Of a stretch of DNA of 37,189 nt, positions 1,849 through 30,830 are shown piece after piece (within the stretch, counting starts at the first letter, position 1; each line of letters opens with the position of its first letter). The notes below the pieces were generated by a model, which worked only from the letters and a program-made list of their open reading frames with translations, was not told the DNA's origin and did not search any database. Both the position numbers and the translations under genes were made by a program. The stretch comes from Prevotella sp. (GTDB lineage: Bacteria; Bacteroidota; Bacteroidia; Bacteroidales; Bacteroidaceae), in assembly GCA_017483185.1 (NCBI GenBank), contig JAFULM010000025.1, positions 1 to 37,189 of the forward strand, given 5' to 3'.

Positions 1849-2514
1849 ATGCCGTTCCAAATACATATAAGCATACTTGATTTTATATTCAAGGGAATTC
1901 TCATCGGAATCATCGCTTCTGCGCCGATGGGGCCTGTCGGCGTGCTCTGCGTGCAGCGGACGCTGAACAAAGGACGCTGGTATGGCTTCATCACCGGCAT
2001 CGGAGCGGCAGTGAGCGACATCATCTACGCCGGTATCACGGGCTTCGGCATGAGCTTTGTCATGAACTTCATCAACGACCAGCAAAACCGTTTCTATCTG
2101 CAGATAGTCGGCAGCGTGCTGCTGATGCTGTTCGGCATATATACCTATCGCACCGACCCAACGCGCAACATCCGTCGTTCGGGCGCCAACAAGGGCACGC
2201 TGGTTCACAACGGCGTGACGGCCTTTCTCGTCACACTGTCCAATCCGCTCATCATTCTGCTCTTTCTCGCCTGTTACGCCCAGTTTGCCTTTGTGCTGCC
2301 GGACCATCCGTTTGAGATGGTCGTAGGCTTCATGAGCATTATCGCAGGCGCACTGCTGTGGTGGTTCGGACTGACATGGCTTGTGGACAAGATACGCGGC
2401 AAGTTCGACGACAATGGCATACGGCTCATCAATCAGGTCATCGGAGCAGTCGTGGTGATATGCTCCGTGATAATGTTTGTTGGCACGGTGACCAACTTAT
2501 ACAGATTTTTCTGA
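1849..2514 (+). CDS. LysE/RhtB-type amino-acid exporter family protein
   Basis: A 221-aa integral membrane protein of the LysE translocator family, which exports amino acids or related small molecules. The N-terminal helix is followed by the family signature around ASAPMGPVGVLCVQRTL. Further hydrophobic segments, NPLIILLFLACYAQF and a C-terminal helix ending near the stop, give about six membrane spans. The ATG at 1849 (MPFQIHISILDF) is chosen over an in-frame ATG at 1810, because the longer start would place the promoter inside the gene. It is first in a tight rightward cluster, with DUF4924 starting 8 bp after its stop. The substrate is unknown. Confidence 0.8.
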   Translation: MPFQIHISILDFIFKGILIGIIASAPMGPVGVLCVQRTLNKGRWYGFITGIGAAVSDIIYAGITGFGMSFVMNFINDQQNRFYLQIVGSVLLMLFGIYTYRTDPTRNIRRSGANKGTLVHNGVTAFLVTLSNPLIILLFLACYAQFAFVLPDHPFEMVVGFMSIIAGALLWWFGLTWLVDKIRGKFDDNGIRLINQVIGAVVVICSVIMFVGTVTNLYRFF

Positions 2515-2522
2515 TTATATAT

Positions 2523-3068
2523 ATGTATATCTCACAGGAACTGAGGAAAAAGAACATAGCGGAATATCTGCTATACATGTGGCAGGTGGAAGACACTATC
2601 CGGGCTTTCGACTGCTCTTTGTCGCGTATCCGCAGGGAGTATATCAGCCGTTTTGATTATACCGACGAACAGAAGGAGGAGATGTCCGACTGGTACGGCT
2701 ATCTGATACGCATGATGAACGAAGAGGGGTGCCGCGAGCAAGGCCATCTGCAGATAAACAAGGTCACGATGATGCAGCTCGAGGAACTCCATGCGCGGCT
2801 GTTGCAGAGCAGCAAGTTCCCGTTCTACAACGCCGAGTATTACAAGGTGTTGCCGTTCATCGTGGAGTTGCGCAACCGCGGGGCCGACAAGGACGAGCAT
2901 GAGGTGGAGACCTGCTTCAACTCCCTCTACGGTGTGATGATGTTGCGTTTGCAGAAGAAGGACATCAGCCCCGATACGGCTCATGCCGTCAAGGAAATAA
3001 CCACGCTGGTGGGGATGCTCAACGACTATTATCTGAAAGACAAGGAGAAACCGCTCGAATTTGATTAA
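2523..3068 (+). CDS. DUF4924 family protein
   Basis: A 181-aa, mostly alpha-helical soluble protein matching the Bacteroidetes-specific DUF4924 family, beginning MYISQELRKKNIAEYLLYMW. No signal peptide, membrane span or catalytic motif is visible; charged and aromatic residues dominate. The start at 2523, 8 bp after the LysE-type stop, is preferred over the longer open frame, whose N-terminal part only overlaps that gene in another frame. It is followed 19 bp later by rfbD. Its function is unknown. The constant neighbourhood with rfbD and prfC is a lineage habit recalled from related genomes rather than evidence of a shared pathway. Confidence 0.8.
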   Translation: MYISQELRKKNIAEYLLYMWQVEDTIRAFDCSLSRIRREYISRFDYTDEQKEEMSDWYGYLIRMMNEEGCREQGHLQINKVTMMQLEELHARLLQSSKFPFYNAEYYKVLPFIVELRNRGADKDEHEVETCFNSLYGVMMLRLQKKDISPDTAHAVKEITTLVGMLNDYYLKDKEKPLEFD

Positions 3069-3087
3069 AAGAAAACGATATAAGACA

Positions 3088-3939
3088 ATGAACATACTGA
3101 TCACGGGCTGCAACGGCCAATTAGGAAATGAGATACAACTGATAGAGAAAAACTATCCGCAGCATAAATTCTACAACACCGACGTCGCCGACCTCGACAT
3201 TACGGACAGTGACGCCGTGACATCGTTTGTGGAGCAAAACGCTATCGACGGCATCATCAACTGTGCCGCATATACGGCGGTTGACAAGGCTGAAGACGCT
3301 GAGGAACTCTGCATGTTGCTTAACGCGACGGCTCCGTCGTATCTGGCTGCTGCCGTAGGACGACGCGGCGGATGGATGGTGCATGTATCGACAGACTATG
3401 TCTTTGACGGGACGGCCCACATACCTTATACGGAAGATATGCCGACGTCGCCCGACAGTGTCTATGGACGTACCAAACTGGCAGGAGAAGAGGCCGTGAT
3501 GAGTTGTTGTGACCGCGTGATGGTGGTTCGGACGGCATGGCTTTACAGCGAGTTCGGCAACAATTTCGTCAAGACCATGATGCGTCTCGGGCGTGAGCGA
3601 GAGCAGTTGGGCGTAGTGTTCGACCAGATTGGGACTCCGACCTATGCCGGCGACCTCGCCGTGGCTATCATGACGGCGGTAGATAAGGGCATTGTGCCCG
3701 GCATATACCATTATTCCAACGAGGGCGTGACCAGCTGGTATGACTTCACCAAAGCCATACATCGTATCGCCGGCATTACCACATGCGACGTTCGCCCGCT
3801 CCATACGGCCGAATATCCGGCCAAGGCAAACCGTCCTGCTTACAGCGTGTTGGACAAGACGAAGATAAAGTCGACCTACGGAATAACCGTTCCCCATTGG
3901 GAGGAATCGCTGGAGAAGTGCATCGGAGGCTTGGCATGA
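3088..3939 (+). CDS. rfbD: dTDP-4-dehydrorhamnose reductase
   Basis: A 283-aa NAD(P)H-dependent reductase of the extended SDR family. It performs the last step of dTDP-L-rhamnose synthesis for surface polysaccharide. The Rossmann motif GCNGQLG is at residues 6-12, the NCAAYTAVDKAE segment follows, STDYVFDG precedes the active site, and the catalytic YGRTK (YxxxK) lies near residue 127. The start is the ATG at 3088 (MNILITGCNGQLG) because the family begins directly with the beta strand; an ATG at 3061 overlaps the upstream gene. No other rhamnose genes (rfbA, B or C) are in the window, so in this genome the pathway is split. Confidence 0.9.
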   Translation: MNILITGCNGQLGNEIQLIEKNYPQHKFYNTDVADLDITDSDAVTSFVEQNAIDGIINCAAYTAVDKAEDAEELCMLLNATAPSYLAAAVGRRGGWMVHVSTDYVFDGTAHIPYTEDMPTSPDSVYGRTKLAGEEAVMSCCDRVMVVRTAWLYSEFGNNFVKTMMRLGREREQLGVVFDQIGTPTYAGDLAVAIMTAVDKGIVPGIYHYSNEGVTSWYDFTKAIHRIAGITTCDVRPLHTAEYPAKANRPAYSVLDKTKIKSTYGITVPHWEESLEKCIGGLA

Positions 3940-26177: not shown

Positions 26178-28031
26178 ATGTCAAACAACAAAGAAAAGCT
26201 CTTTAGCGAGTTTGCGGCGCCCACCACTCAGGAGTGGTTGGACAAGATTCAGGTTGACCTGAAAGGCGCTGACTTCAACAAGAAGCTCGTGTGGAGGACC
26301 AATGAGGGGTTCGACGTGCAACCCTTCTACCGTAGAGAAGACGTACTGAAGCTGAAGACCCCCGAGGCTCTGCCCGGTGAGTTCCCCTTCGTGCGTGGTA
26401 ACAAGAAAGACAACAACGAATGGTATGTTCGCCAGAACATCGTCTGCGAAGATGCCGCCGAGGCCAATGCCAAGGCTCTCGACATCCTCAACAAGGGTGT
26501 CGACTCGCTCGGTTTCCGCATCCCCGGCGACAAGGTGAGCGCCGAGTTCATCGACACGCTGCTCAAGGACATCCGCTGCGACATCGTCGAAGTGAACTTC
26601 CGCACCTGTCCCTGTCACGTGCTCGAGTTGGCGGACATCCTCATGGCCTACTTCGAGAAGCAGGGTTATGACAAGGAGAAGATTTGCGGCTGCATCGGTT
26701 TCGACCCGATCGAGAAGATGGTCATGAAGGGCAAGGACACGTCTAAGAAGATTGCCGACGCTGCCGTGCTCGTGGAGAAATTGAAGGATTATCCGGGCAT
26801 CCGTTGCATCACGGTCCACTCGGAAGCTCTCAACAATGCCGGCGCATACATCGTTCAGGAGCTGGGATATGCCCTTGCCTGGGGTAACGAGTATCTCCAC
26901 CAGCTCGTCGAGGCCGGTGTCGATGTGGATTTGGCTGCCCGCAGCATCAAGTTCTACATGGGCGTGAGCGAAAACTACTTCATGGAGATTGCCAAGTTCC
27001 GCGCTGCCCGTCTGCTTTGGGCCGAGATTGTCAAGCAGTATGAGCCCAAGTGCGACTGCTCTTGCAAGATGATTGTCAACGCTCAGACCACGACTTACAA
27101 CAAGACCGTGTTTGACAGCTATGTCAACCTGCTGCGCACGCAGACCGAGACGATGAGCGCCGCTCTGGCCGGAGTCCATTCTATCGTCGTTACACCGTTT
27201 GACGCAGTCTACGAGCAGCCGACGGAGTTCTCCGAGCGCATCGCCCGCAACCAGCAGCTGCTGCTCAAGGAGGAGAGCCACTTCGACAAGGTCGTTGACC
27301 CGTCGGCCGGTTCCTATTATATCGAGGAGTTGACCAATTCGCTGGCCGACGTCGCCTGGAAACTCTTCCTCAAGATCGAGGATGAGGGCGGATTCCTCGC
27401 TGCTGTCAAGGCCGGCACAGTTCAGGATGACATCAACGCCACCAACGACAAGCGTCACGCCGACGCCGCCAAGCGCAAGGAGTTCATCCTCGGAACCAAC
27501 CAGTTCCCCAACTTCACCGAGACATCCGACGGCAAAGCGGCACAGGCTTGTTCTTGCGCTTGCGGTCACAAGCATGAGCCCACGCTCAAAGCCATCTCCA
27601 CGACACGTCTCGCCGCCGATTTCGAGCAGCTGCGCCTCGCAACGGAGCAGAGCGGCAAGACTCCTGTGGCCTTCATGCTGACCATCGGCAACCTCGCTTG
27701 GCGTCAGGCACGTGCACAGTTCTCGTCGAACTTCCTCGCATGCGCCGGCTACAAGATCATCGACAACCTCGGTTTCGAGACCGTCGAGGAGGGTGTCGAC
27801 GCAGCTCTGAAGGCCGGTGCCGACATCGTCGTGCTCTGCTCGAGCGATGACGAATATGCTACCTACGCCATCCCGGCATACCAGTATCTCGCCGGCCGCG
27901 CCATGTTCATCGTTGCCGGCGCTCCCGCCTGCATGGAAGAGCTCAAGGCTGCCGGAATCGAGAACTTCGTTCACGTGAAATGTAATGTGCTTGAAACACT
28001 GAAGGAGTATAATGCGAAGTTAGGAATATAA
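26178..28031 (+). CDS. mutA: Methylmalonyl-CoA mutase small subunit
   Basis: A 617-aa non-catalytic partner of MutB in the mutase that interconverts succinyl-CoA and methylmalonyl-CoA. The N-terminal region (FAAPTTQEWLDKIQVDLKGA) and barrel match the small subunit. The C-terminal B12-like domain lacks the DxHxxG cobalamin ligand motif, as expected for MutA. An unusual Cys/His cluster, C458, C460, C462, H464 and H466 (CSCACGHKH), lies in the linker before the C-terminal domain. The start ATG is 72 bp below a perfect promoter. A 597-aa open frame on the opposite strand is a GC-driven shadow. Confidence 0.93.
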   Translation: MSNNKEKLFSEFAAPTTQEWLDKIQVDLKGADFNKKLVWRTNEGFDVQPFYRREDVLKLKTPEALPGEFPFVRGNKKDNNEWYVRQNIVCEDAAEANAKALDILNKGVDSLGFRIPGDKVSAEFIDTLLKDIRCDIVEVNFRTCPCHVLELADILMAYFEKQGYDKEKICGCIGFDPIEKMVMKGKDTSKKIADAAVLVEKLKDYPGIRCITVHSEALNNAGAYIVQELGYALAWGNEYLHQLVEAGVDVDLAARSIKFYMGVSENYFMEIAKFRAARLLWAEIVKQYEPKCDCSCKMIVNAQTTTYNKTVFDSYVNLLRTQTETMSAALAGVHSIVVTPFDAVYEQPTEFSERIARNQQLLLKEESHFDKVVDPSAGSYYIEELTNSLADVAWKLFLKIEDEGGFLAAVKAGTVQDDINATNDKRHADAAKRKEFILGTNQFPNFTETSDGKAAQACSCACGHKHEPTLKAISTTRLAADFEQLRLATEQSGKTPVAFMLTIGNLAWRQARAQFSSNFLACAGYKIIDNLGFETVEEGVDAALKAGADIVVLCSSDDEYATYAIPAYQYLAGRAMFIVAGAPACMEELKAAGIENFVHVKCNVLETLKEYNAKLGI

Positions 28032-28051
28032 TATTAATTTAAACGTGATTA

Positions 28052-28087
28052 TTAAACGCAAAGACGCTGAGTCGCAAAGTCTTTAAT
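28052..28087 (+). repeat. Left inverted repeat of the GxxExxY unit
   Basis: A 36-nt sequence with core acgcaaagacgct and cgcaaagt. It matches the reverse complement of 28611-28646 at 31 of 36 positions. It begins 20 bp after the mutA stop. Confidence 0.75.
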
Positions 28088-28111
28088 CAAAGAAAGAAAG
28101 GAACGAAGTTT

Positions 28112-28537
28112 ATGGAAGATAGGTCGCAAAGAATTAACGCATGGAGTAAGGTTGTTATCGGAGCGGCCATTGAGGTTCATAAATGTTTAGGACCTGGACT
28201 TTTGGAATCAATTTATGAAGATTGTCTGAAAATGGAATTAGAACAGCGAGGACTTCATGTTGAGACTCAGGTTAATGTGCCAGTCATATACAAAGGTGTA
28301 GATACAAAGAAACATTTCAGATTAGATATGCTGATTGAAGACGAAATCGTAGTGGAATTGAAAGCCGTTGACGTTTTGCTTCCGGTACACGAAGTTCAAT
28401 TGGTTACCTATCTGAAGTTGACTGACAAACGTTTGGGGTTGTTGATAAACTTCAATGTCCCGATATTAAAAGACGGAATTAAAAGAAGAGTGAACGGTCT
28501 ATATGAATATACAGGCATAAAGCCTATAAGAGATTGA
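28112..28537 (+). CDS. GxxExxY family protein (PD-(D/E)XK-like fold)
   Basis: A 141-aa protein with the name-giving motif GPGLLESIY (G29, E32, Y35). A nuclease-like core has D72, E82 and K84 (LDMLIEDEIVVELK), the PD-(D/E)XK pattern. Such proteins are common in environmental and gut bacteria, are usually annotated as of unknown function, and are often next to short repeats. Here the gene lies between mutA and mutB and is enclosed by a 36-nt inverted repeat pair, so it looks like an inserted unit. Base composition is more AT-rich than that of the neighbours. It is presumably transcribed with mutAB. A DNA-acting or repeat-mobilising role is inference. Confidence 0.85.
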   Translation: MEDRSQRINAWSKVVIGAAIEVHKCLGPGLLESIYEDCLKMELEQRGLHVETQVNVPVIYKGVDTKKHFRLDMLIEDEIVVELKAVDVLLPVHEVQLVTYLKLTDKRLGLLINFNVPILKDGIKRRVNGLYEYTGIKPIRD

Positions 28538-28610
28538 ACGCTCTGCGCCTTGCTTTTACGTTTTGATATATTGCTTTGCTCTTTCTTTGCGTTTCTGGGC
28601 TTGGCCTTAA

Positions 28611-28646
28611 ATTAAAAACTTTGCGCCATAGCGTCTTTGCGTTAAA
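28611..28646 (-). repeat. Right inverted repeat of the GxxExxY unit
   Basis: Partner of 28052-28087. Weaker matches to the same acgcaaag theme also occur just inside it (28581-28595). It is followed 36 bp later by the mutB start. Confidence 0.75.
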
Positions 28647-28682
28647 AAATAAACAACGTTACGTTTAAAAATATAAAACAAG

Positions 28683-30830
28683 ATGAGAAAGAATTTTAAA
28701 GACATAGACATATATGCCGGTATAAAGGCCGCCGACGGCGCCGACTGGCAGAAGGCTAACGGCATTGCTCCCAACTGGAAGACTCCGGAGCACATTGAGG
28801 TTAAGCCCGTTTATACCAAAGAAGACCTTGAGGGCATGGAGCACCTCGACTTCACGGCCGGCATCCCGCCGTTCCTGCGTGGTCCGTACTCTATGATGTA
28901 CCCGTTCCGCCCGTGGACTATCCGCCAGTATGCCGGATTCTCTACGGCCGAGGAGTCCAACGCATTCTACCGCCGCAACCTTGCGTCGGGTCAGAAGGGT
29001 CTGTCCGTTGCGTTCGACCTGCCGACACACCGCGGCTACGACCCCGACAACGAGCGCGTGGTCGGTGACGTGGGCAAGGCCGGAGTGTCCATCTGCAACG
29101 AGGAGAACATGAAGGTGCTCTTCGACGGAATCCCCTTGAACAAGATGTCAGTGTCGATGACCATGAACGGAGCCGTGCTTCCCATCCTCGCTTTCTACAT
29201 CGTGGCCGGATTGGAGCAGGGAGCCAAGCTCGAAGAGATGGCCGGAACGATTCAGAACGACATTCTGAAGGAGTTCATGGTGCGCAACACCTATATCTAT
29301 CCGCCAGCCTTCTCAATGAAGATCATCGCCGACATCTTCGAGTACACATCGCAGAACATGCCGAAGTTCAACTCCATATCAATCTCCGGTTATCACATGC
29401 AGGAGGCCGGTGCCACTGCCGACATTGAGTTGGCATACACCCTGGCCGACGGTATGGACTACATCCGTGCCGGTGTGAACGCCGGAATCGACATCGACGC
29501 CTTCGCTCCGCGTCTGTCCTTTTTCTGGGCTATCGGCGTGAACCACTTCATGGAGATTGCCAAGATGCGTGCCGGCCGTCTGCTGTGGGCAAAGATTGTG
29601 AAGAGCTTCGGCGCAAAGAACCCGAAGTCGCTCGCTCTGCGCACACACTCGCAGACATCGGGATGGTCGCTCACCGAGCAGGATCCGTTCAACAACGTCG
29701 GACGTACCTGTATCGAGGCAATGGCCGCAGTGCTCGGTCACACCCAGTCGCTGCACACCAACGCCCTCGACGAGGCTATCGCCCTGCCTACCGACTTCTC
29801 CGCACGTATCGCCCGCAACACCCAGATCTACATCCAGAATGAGACTAAGGTCTGCAAGCAGATTGACCCGTGGGCCGGTTCCTACTATGTGGAGACGCTG
29901 ACCAACGAGCTCGTTCACAAGGCGTGGGAGCACATTCAGGAGATTGAGAAGCTCGGCGGTATGGCCAAGGCCATCGAGACCGGCGTGCCCAAGATGCGCA
30001 TTGAGGAGGCCGCTGCCCGCACTCAGGCCCGCATCGACTCCGGCGTACAGACAATCGTCGGTACGAACAAGTATCGTCTCGACCACGAGGACCCCATCGA
30101 CATCCTCGAGGTGGACAACACCGCCGTGCGCAAGCAGCAGGAGGAGAGTCTCGCCGCCGTCCGCGCGTCGCGTGACGAGGAGGCTTGCCGCAAGGCTCTG
30201 GCCGACCTGACGGAGTGCGTCCGCACAGGCGAGGGCAACCTGCTGGCTCATGCCATCGAGTGCGCCAAGCTGCGTTGCACATTGGGAGAGATAAGTGACG
30301 CCTGCGAGGAAATCGTTGGACGTTATAAGGCTGTAATCAGAACTATTTCAGGAGTGTATTCATCAGAAAGCAAAAACGACAAGGACTTCGAGCTGGCATG
30401 CCAGCTGACGGAGGAATTCGCCAAGAAGGAGGGCCGCCGCCCGCGTATCTTCGTGGCAAAGATGGGACAGGACGGTCACGACCGCGGTGCAAAGGTTGTC
30501 GCAACGGGTTATGCCGACTGCGGTTTCGACGTGGACATGGGTCCGCTCTTCCAGACTCCGGCCGAGGCTGCGCGTGAGGCAGTGGAGAACGACGTCCATG
30601 TTGTGGGCGTTTCGTCGCTTGCCGCGGGTCACAAGACGCTCGTTCCGCAGCTCATCGAGGAGCTGAAGAAGGCCGGACGCGAGGACATCATGGTCATTGC
30701 CGGCGGTGTGATTCCCGCTCAGGACTACGACTTCCTCTATCAGGCAGGCGTAGCCGCAATCTTCGGCCCCGGTACTTCGGTTGCCAAGGCTGCCGTCGAA
30801 ATGATGAAGATATTGCTCGACAAGGAGTAA
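28683..30830 (+). CDS. mutB: Methylmalonyl-CoA mutase large, catalytic subunit
   Basis: A 715-aa cobalamin enzyme. The N-terminal barrel binds CoA ester ([55 protein letters not shown]). The C-terminal B12-binding domain carries [11 protein letters not shown] with D597, H599 (the lower axial ligand) and G602. The sequence is strongly conserved and full length. It works with MutA to convert succinyl-CoA to methylmalonyl-CoA, feeding the decarboxylase whose membrane subunits are at 20869-23505. The gap of 651 bp to mutA is filled by the GxxExxY unit. Confidence 0.95.

Follow-up and report, generated by a model that had tools for sequence, protein, structure and literature searches.

The window analysed here, 37,189 nucleotides of a Prevotella genome, contains a gene for a GxxExxY protein that lies between mutA and mutB and is enclosed by two inverted arrays of a short word. 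With a probability of roughly 0.6, we interpret this insert as a one-gene selfish element whose nuclease acts on the word arrays at its own ends. Most likely, the predicted nuclease would read the two terminal arrays of its own element, as the anatomy of the word and its specificity to protein clades suggest, and cutting there would copy or move the unit, as word bursts and patchy occupancy suggest. Such an element would reside between co-directional host genes and would probably lack a promoter of its own, depending on read-through; its sole gene would encode a small PD-(D/E)XK nuclease, and both ends would be inverted arrays of about three copies of the word (here CGCnRAG). GxxExxY, or a complex containing it, would read the word in DNA as its own tag, with GxxExxY itself presumably binding and cutting the arrays; cuts or nicks at the arrays may mobilise or copy the element, and gene-less hairpins may be its non-autonomous products. 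If this is true, one small nuclease gene would have a means of maintaining itself between host genes that has not been described before. The arms would then offer a concrete candidate substrate for the GxxExxY protein and tie dispersed short repeats to a gene family. In the open-access papers searched, we found no link of GxxExxY to such repeats and no established function of PF13366 proteins, a common family; five word strings of 12-15 letters led, judging by title, only to papers on animal genes.

The insert in the mutAB gap

The end of mutA (28031) and the start of mutB (28683) leave a gap of 651 bp that is occupied by the GxxExxY gene (Table 1), an arrangement that the earlier note had described and that profile matches and coordinates bear out. 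The gene product matches TIGR04256 at 150.1 bits (cut-off 35) and PF13366 (PDDEXK_3) at 146 bits; its score above the curated cut-off and its motif (G29, E32, Y35) place it in the GxxExxY family, and D72, E82 and K84, all invariant, would place it in the PD-(D/E)XK superfamily, in line with the type of core first proposed. Because ten residues (G29, E32, Y35, D72, E82, K84, Q96, Y100, N113 and F114) are invariant in 35 aligned GxxExxY sequences, the window's included, the nuclease core is, as judged by sequence, intact. The D...ExK...QxxxY core is shared with Cas4 and RecB-type PD-(D/E)XK nucleases. Cas4 profile matches of the window's protein are weak and not significant (E 0.58 for PDB 4ic1, a Cas4; E 0.014 for PADLOC Cas4), while 6 of the 35 aligned sequences match Pfam Cas_Cas4 (best E 0.002) and one shows a non-significant likeness to phage endonuclease I (E 0.0085). 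Likeness to Cas4 or endonuclease I would presumably suit an enzyme whose substrates are branched or single-stranded DNA.

Table 1. Features of the mutAB locus, in positions of the window
Feature	Positions	Strand	Basis
mutA, methylmalonyl-CoA mutase small subunit (upstream host gene)	26178..28031	+	TIGR00642, 681.6 bits, cut-off 617.25
Left inverted arm	28048..28092	+	repeat search, motif map, sequence
Left-arm words, head to tail: CGCAAAG, CGCTGAG, CGCAAAG	28057-28063, 28065-28071, 28073-28079	+	motif map, sequence
GxxExxY protein gene, 141 aa, predicted PD-(D/E)XK nuclease superfamily, the element's only gene	28112..28537	+	TIGR04256, PF13366
Codons of the GxxExxY motif (G29, E32, Y35)	28196..28216	+	invariant in 35 aligned sequences
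Codons of the D72 ... E82-x-K84 ... Q96-xxx-Y100 core	28325..28411	+	five residues invariant in 35 aligned sequences
Extra word on the right, inward of the main arm (CGCAGAG on - strand)	28541..28547	-	motif map, sequence
Right inverted arm	28606..28650	-	repeat search, motif map, sequence
Right-arm words: CGCAAAG, CGCTATG (one letter off), CGCAAAG	28635-28641, 28627-28633, 28619-28625	-	
mutB, methylmalonyl-CoA mutase large subunit (downstream host gene)	28683..30830	+	NF006944, 1288.6 bits, cut-off 876

The 36-nt inverted repeat (28052-28087 and 28611-28646) matches at 31 of 36 positions, exactly as first reported, and extends to arms of 45 nt each that are 82% complementary. The left arm consists of ACGCAAAG-ACGCTGAG-TCGCAAAG and the right arm of the same in reverse, with few changes; the upstream array is situated some 30-55 bp ahead of the GxxExxY start codon. 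Arms were scored as the best inverted similarity between the 350 bp upstream and the 350 bp downstream of a gene, with swapped loci and sham positions as controls. At the mutAB locus the score is 31, compared with a 99th percentile of 17.5 at 304 sham positions, and the arm 12-mer ACGCAAAGACGC has 58 copies in the 2.47-Mb genome of the window (61 contigs, 74.7% complete; labelled G000) while its backward-read pattern has none; the inverted repeat is therefore not a product of chance. Terminal inverted repeats, as used to recognise insertion sequences, are thus present; no known transposase (DDE, HUH, serine or tyrosine) was found in the element, whose sole gene has TIGR04256 as its only NCBIfam match and PF13366 as its only Pfam match at E 0.001.

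In order to establish how the gap is occupied in relatives, we located mutB in 58 of 90 genus genomes; 30 genomes yielded loci and, together with one locus found through its GxxExxY gene (L059), gave 31 loci. The earlier note had named presence of the gene here in every relative, with no conservation of the repeats, as a finding against its reading, and such uniform occupancy is not what was found: the gap is empty in 26 of the 31 loci, measuring -8 to 58 bp, and filled by GxxExxY in three (651 bp in the window's genome, 631 bp in G066 and 530 bp in G087), two loci being uncalled. On a mutA tree with 29 rows, three changes are required to explain the three filled sites, and supported branches force the same number. 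Two named MAGs (L186, L187) also have, by eye, a GxxExxY gene between MutA-like and MutB-like ORFs, and these five mutAB proteins form a 6-tip group of weak support with that of L068, which by eye lies between two other, sugar-operon-like ORFs. The words at the elements of this group differ (ACGCAAAG, ACGCAGAG, ACACAGAG and ACACAAAG). The mutAB lineage of GxxExxY thus favours the site, through either repeated arrival, transfer, or an old arrival with many losses; as the five proteins are almost one group, descent with losses is possible, and as their words differ, either history requires the word copies of an element to change together. An ordinary gene inherited at mutAB and accompanied by a chance inverted repeat could account for five genes of one protein group at this site; we consider this scarcely credible given the short gap in most loci and the recurrence of the arms across phyla relative to sham and swapped controls (see below), which refutes the part assigned to chance.

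Arms across phyla and the anatomy of the word

PF13366 was present in 85 of 149 genomes (the window's own included), and GxxExxY genes were assembled in three sets with no stretch in common (90% identity over 300 bp); five pairs of near-copies fall inside individual sets. The relatives set, drawn from the best-scoring matches and including the window's own, comprised 71 genes in 70 loci; here the median arm score was 23.5 versus 11.5 for both swapped loci and sham positions, with 51 of the 71 genes above the sham 99th percentile and 39 above the swapped-locus one. For the named set, the pattern GPGLLE[SKT][VAI]Y gave 579 relatives in named genomes, the best 80 of which were kept, covering many phyla. 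The 76 of these that were usable for arms (four with short flanks being left out) had a median of 21.75 versus 12.0 in either control, 45 of them exceeding the sham and 30 the swapped threshold, and one of the two archaeal loci passed the arm threshold. The later set, 31 genes in 29 loci of other genomes of the same phylum, had a median of 18.5 versus 12.0 and 11.5; 20 of its genes exceed 17.5, 14 exceed 19.755 and 13 exceed the swapped 99th percentile. Arms were not detected at 20 of 71 genes in the relatives set, 31 of 76 in the named set and 11 of 31 in the later set. Similarity in 4-mers between left and right arm averaged 0.60 within an element and 0.17 between elements (83 of 151 elements, those with an arm score of at least 18, a selection that favours this outcome): different GxxExxY genes use different words, and both arms of one gene use the same word. 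The earlier suggestion that repeats may be the clue to GxxExxY proteins is strongly supported by these inverted word arrays, which flank the genes across phyla and are associated with them at the genome level.

At L082, L322 (G240:C4:68680-69767) and L323 (G178:C1:1593378-1594187) two GxxExxY genes lie in tandem, separated by a few hundred bases, with stretches 94-100% alike, although the stretches compared in L323 may overlap; the pairs are perhaps step-wise duplications of the element. With the window's GxxExxY protein as query, matches were rare in plasmids (8 of 72,556 records) and absent from 50,697 phage records. In Bacteroides finegoldii (L271, NZ_OY725952.1) a GxxExxY gene lies co-directionally between radA and a gene for an FAD-dependent protein, in a record that is filed as a plasmid yet has housekeeping genes.

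In the named set the word reads C-R-C-n-R-A-G. Mismatch between the arms was measured in 44 of the 80 named elements, those with an arm score of at least 15, with words anchored in one arm. For 98 left-anchored words it amounts to 2% at C1, 7% at R2, 0% at C3, 41% at N4, 13% at R5, 3% at A6 and 1% at G7, compared with 32% at the letter before the word and 43% at the letter after; two letters outside the word, at the start of the adjacent words, the values are 13% and 21%. The 100 right-anchored words behave similarly (C1 4%, C3 1%, N4 38%). Start-to-start spacing is 8 bp in 71, 9 bp in 36, 10 bp in 20 and another value in 21 of the 148 intervals of up to 20 bp. Since C1, C3, A6 and G7 differ in 0-4% of cases but N4 and the adjoining spacers in 32-43%, we infer that the arms are constrained by sequence recognition and not by pairing, the fixed and free positions probably being the mark of a base-reading protein. 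Copying of one arm onto the other would keep N4 and the spacers alike, whereas both vary between arms, and pairing as the sole constraint would not single out N4.

The words cluster around the gene, up to about 150 bp away, and face inward. In the named set, CRCNRAG occurs at 0-50 bp upstream 1.43 times per locus in the inward orientation versus 0.27 in the other, and downstream 1.64 versus 0.60 times, whereas beyond 200 bp from the gene its density is 0.01-0.16 per 50-bp bin per locus. At least two inward words on both sides are found in 34 of 74 loci, as against 11 of 74 for the wrong orientation, and the later set has 3.39 inward versus 0.61 outward words per locus. The words of one element also agree with each other: in the 60 of 151 elements with enough words, agreement is 0.859 at R2 (shuffled 0.512) and 0.800 at R5 (0.507), and even at N4 it is 0.516 versus 0.411, beyond all 500 shuffles (maximum 0.462).

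As to orientation, both neighbours are co-directional with the GxxExxY gene at 51 of 71 genes in the relatives set and 51 of 80 in the named set, together 102 of 151, and both are opposite at 3 of 71 and 5 of 80, together 8 of 151, all by rough ORF calls. Among other ORFs at these loci, co-directional neighbours likewise predominate (15 of 26, with 4 of 26 opposite), and for four-helix-bundle genes, considered further below, the figures are 24 and 0 of 30. Random insertion would yield equal counts of both orientations, so the skew means that insertion or survival favours the sense orientation. This preference would suit arms that act as RNA, as a stem in the operon transcript that is cut out in an RNase III-like manner or that shields the neighbours, rendering the insert harmless; a parallel, according to passages of PMC4990558, is the S23-coding rRNA intervening sequence of Coxiella, which RNase III excises and whose ORF is preceded by heptamers. 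We nevertheless deem an RNA role very unlikely. Arm mismatches show no G-U bias in sense RNA (167 G-U-compatible versus 208 A-C in 83 elements, p 0.039 in the opposite direction), the freely varying N4 and spacers would break a stem as much as a change of C1 or C3, and the region 27700-29000 has no Rfam match. Neither the G-U bias test nor the free word positions support reading the arms as an RNA stem.

Word bursts and gene-less hairpins

Within the 90 genus genomes, the 12-mer ACGCAAAGACGC is present 66 times in G071 and 17 times in G085 in addition to its 58 copies in the window's genome, once in each of 12 genomes and not at all in 75, while the backward control occurs 0-4 times per genome; the motif thus forms a burst in a few lineages. 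Exact inverted pairs take up 14 of the 58 sites in the window's genome, giving seven pairs 45-58 bp apart, and some of the other sites have a degenerate second arm. Eleven hairpins picked by hand in this genome are 51-87 bp long and, by rough ORF calls, all lie between ORFs; most have outer ends like TTYAA-ACGC. Their arms differ at 4 of 159 fixed and 9 of 88 free positions and are more alike than the arms at genes, as expected of young copies.

Gene-less copies that share ends and have multiplied in one lineage are a hallmark of MITEs and REPINs. The short gene-less hairpins and the motif burst in one genome resemble these repeats; the differences are that no helper transposase was identified, that the candidate partner is GxxExxY, and that no target duplication recurs consistently. 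For 18 motif elements in the window's genome the direct-repeat score averaged 6.17 versus 5.51 for swapped flanks, with no common length. The proposal of a small mobile or self-propagating unit is accordingly plausible, with patchy occupancy at mutAB and word bursts on its side and the lack of a consistent target duplication against it.

Many of the 58 sites belong to a longer repeat in which CGCAAAG words enclose a GC-rich core (for example C39:371-622, C6:38322-38755 and C44:28019-28260). The same genome contains a second hairpin family in another dialect, CACAGAGACACGGAGACACAGAG (C14:29926-29981, C14:40803-40858, C16:25599-25655, C23:31747-31802, C31:56997-57052 and C32:18187-18242); the assembly's one GxxExxY gene has the CGC dialect. 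In one gene-less hairpin (L048, C52:38100-38163) the inverted likeness extends about 16 bases outside the words (AAGCCGGAATGTTTAA). This looks as though adjacent DNA had been reverse-copied and hints at fold-back copying.

Of 118 genomes of the phylum (the window's own included), 26 contain the triple word CRCNRAGRCRCNRAGRCRCNRAG and none its backward reading. GxxExxY is encoded in 24 of the 26 triple-word genomes versus 36 of the 92 others (Fisher 9e-7), Y1_Tnp in 23 of 26 versus 60 of 92 (p 0.028), and the number of arrays correlates with that of GxxExxY copies (Spearman 0.53); all three statistics ignore kinship. Repeats found elsewhere with no link to GxxExxY had been named in the earlier note as evidence against its reading, and on this point the results divide: 28 of 30 array loci examined (stretches of 2-3 kb, one or two per genome) are without a GxxExxY gene, which is present in the other two, but the statistical link at the genome level is strong.

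Word arrays could instead be host-wide repeats of the REP or MITE kind that are spread by another enzyme, such as a Y1 transposase of the RAYT or TIRYT type, with GxxExxY genes as passengers. Array loci without GxxExxY and the greater frequency of Y1_Tnp in array genomes point this way, as do the burst genomes G071 and G085, in which none of their 5 GxxExxY genes has the same word (both assemblies are incomplete); moreover, Y1 genes flanked by TIRs are known as TIRtrons (PMC3733652, in part). We regard this explanation as unlikely, for the link of arrays to GxxExxY is stronger than that to Y1 and holds both within genomes with Y1 (p 1e-4) and within those without (p 0.034), three array genomes (G149, G178, G252) have GxxExxY but no Y1 match, and the one Y1 gene of the window's genome has its own GTAGGGACA-type flanks, unlike CGCAAAG. 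A passenger would also not produce a word class that follows the GxxExxY clade and differs at four-helix-bundle genes. As its repeats differ, the RAYT was rejected as mover of the CGCAAAG words.

That RAYT-like Y1 match (L053, about 2470-3170, on C41) lies, by eye, between genes resembling ferredoxin-oxidoreductase subunits and has GTAGGGACAAATTCTTGTATCTGTCCGC-like flanking repeats; an GTAGGGACAAATTCTTGTATCTGTCCGC-like repeat is also found beside two CGCAAAG sites (L009, L052). In both L331 and L332 (G203:C33), a Y1_Tnp gene is located within a few hundred bases of a GxxExxY gene of the GNGFQEVIY type; in L331 the Y1_Tnp gene is outside the CACGGATT-type arms.

It is also conceivable that the arrays are binding sites through which a resident nuclease is controlled or marks itself, as in autoregulation, addiction or defence, and are not mobile ends. 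Words that are conserved like protein sites and an upstream array so close to the start codon at mutAB would be in keeping with such a role, yet an operator needs no inverted array downstream, the motif bursts genome-wide in a few genomes, the mutAB gap is patchily occupied, and PADLOC returned only weak Cas4 matches (E 0.014 and 0.017); we rate a purely regulatory function as quite unlikely.

Known systems, word classes and four-helix-bundle genes

Returning to the reading of the insert as a selfish element with a nuclease acting on its own ends, a homing endonuclease gene, which cuts the empty allele and is copied into it, offers one comparison: occupancy at mutAB is patchy, and cutting is here putative. 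The closest working likeness is with REPtrons and TIRtrons, in which, according to sections of PMC3733652, a RAYT or TIRYT gene is flanked by REPs or TIRs. These share with the present element a single gene between inverted repeats and gene-less repeat copies dispersed in genomes, but their gene is a Y1 (HUH) transposase where the GxxExxY element has a predicted PD-(D/E)XK nuclease, and their repeats are GTAG hairpins where the arms here are arrays of a 7-letter word with free positions (PMC3733652, same sections). The defining Y1 enzyme is absent between the mutAB arms, the genome's only Y1 match lying on C41 with other repeats.

In the Coxiella 23S rRNA intervening sequence with its S23p ORF, tandem heptamers precede the ORF; inverted repeats are mentioned for such intervening sequences, and an old idea sees them as transposition remnants (PMC4990558, in excerpt). 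The likeness consists in a small element with one short ORF and word-like repeats, the difference in a four-helix-bundle protein, a location in rRNA and excision by RNase III (PMC4990558, as above). The GxxExxY element, in contrast, occupies a gap between protein genes, encodes a member of a nuclease family, has another word and shows no sign of selection for RNA pairing; with a GxxExxY ORF at mutAB in place of an S23 ORF in rRNA, it is not an S23p intervening sequence. Arrays of the heptamer TAACTGA, described in Beggiatoaceae, Cyanobacteria and Bacteroidetes, are likewise mostly intergenic, made of 2-6 heptamers and patchy across phyla; they differ in being mostly direct and situated before start codons, and the portions of PMC4679880 consulted describe no flanked gene family.

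The class of word goes with the GxxExxY clade and with the protein family. Across 83 elements, protein distance correlates with arm-word distance (Mantel r 0.27, p 0.0005), as against r 0.04 (p 0.08) for flanks outside the arms; in the named set alone the values are 0.20 for arms (36 elements) and 0.05 (p 0.19) for outside flanks, and in Bacteroidales alone r is 0.24 for arms (47 elements), with the outside flanks also tracking (r 0.08, p 0.019). In tree order, proteins of the GLLESxY type mostly have CRCnRAG words, and other GxxExxY proteins have CACGGATT, ACGTAAAT, ACGGACT, CGCAGATT or ACGGAAA. Fixed and free letters, together with a class that varies with the protein clade, make the word a natural candidate for a recognition code. 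At a finer scale, fitting the CAC/CGC dialect to the best protein tree takes 14 changes (mean of shuffles 17.5, with 29 of 500 as low), supported branches forcing only 2, and R5 takes 10 (shuffled 15.8), with 3 forced; these changes speak against a tight protein-word code. A single residue that sets the dialect was considered and rejected: a C-terminal V/I column correlates with it (29 V and 1 I/L with CGC, 5 and 11 with CAC), with only 2 supported independent pairs for tree control.

Genes for four-helix-bundle proteins (TIGR02436, S23) are present in 119 of 149 genomes (the window's own included). At 18 of 30 loci their arms score above 17.5, a threshold borrowed from the GxxExxY sham set, and at only 3 of 30 above the swapped 99th percentile (30.15), because these arms resemble each other across loci. 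Their word is a different one: AGTTRA/AGTWGA occurs 2.9 times inward versus 0.14 times outward per locus (29 loci) and 0.20-0.44 times at GxxExxY genes, and CRCNRAG 0.21 times per locus (29 loci) versus 4.4 at named GxxExxY genes. It is close to an even chance, if slightly less, that GxxExxY and S23/four-helix-bundle genes both belong to a hitherto undescribed class of selfish elements dwelling in operons. In each such element one small protein would recognise a private iterated word at both ends; the word class would be set by protein family and clade, dialects would change in concert across all copies within an element, and gene-less arms would multiply as CRCnRAG hairpins in several phyla. 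In that case GxxExxY would represent a novel type of mobility nuclease, a PD-(D/E)XK enzyme acting through word arrays and not a fixed end.

The only TIGR02436 match in the window's genome (L033 / L054, G000:C4:98789-99100) is flanked by inverted GGAGTTAAG-type arrays with a score of 35 whose arms carry AGTTAAG words, and this locus is a sister element with another word.
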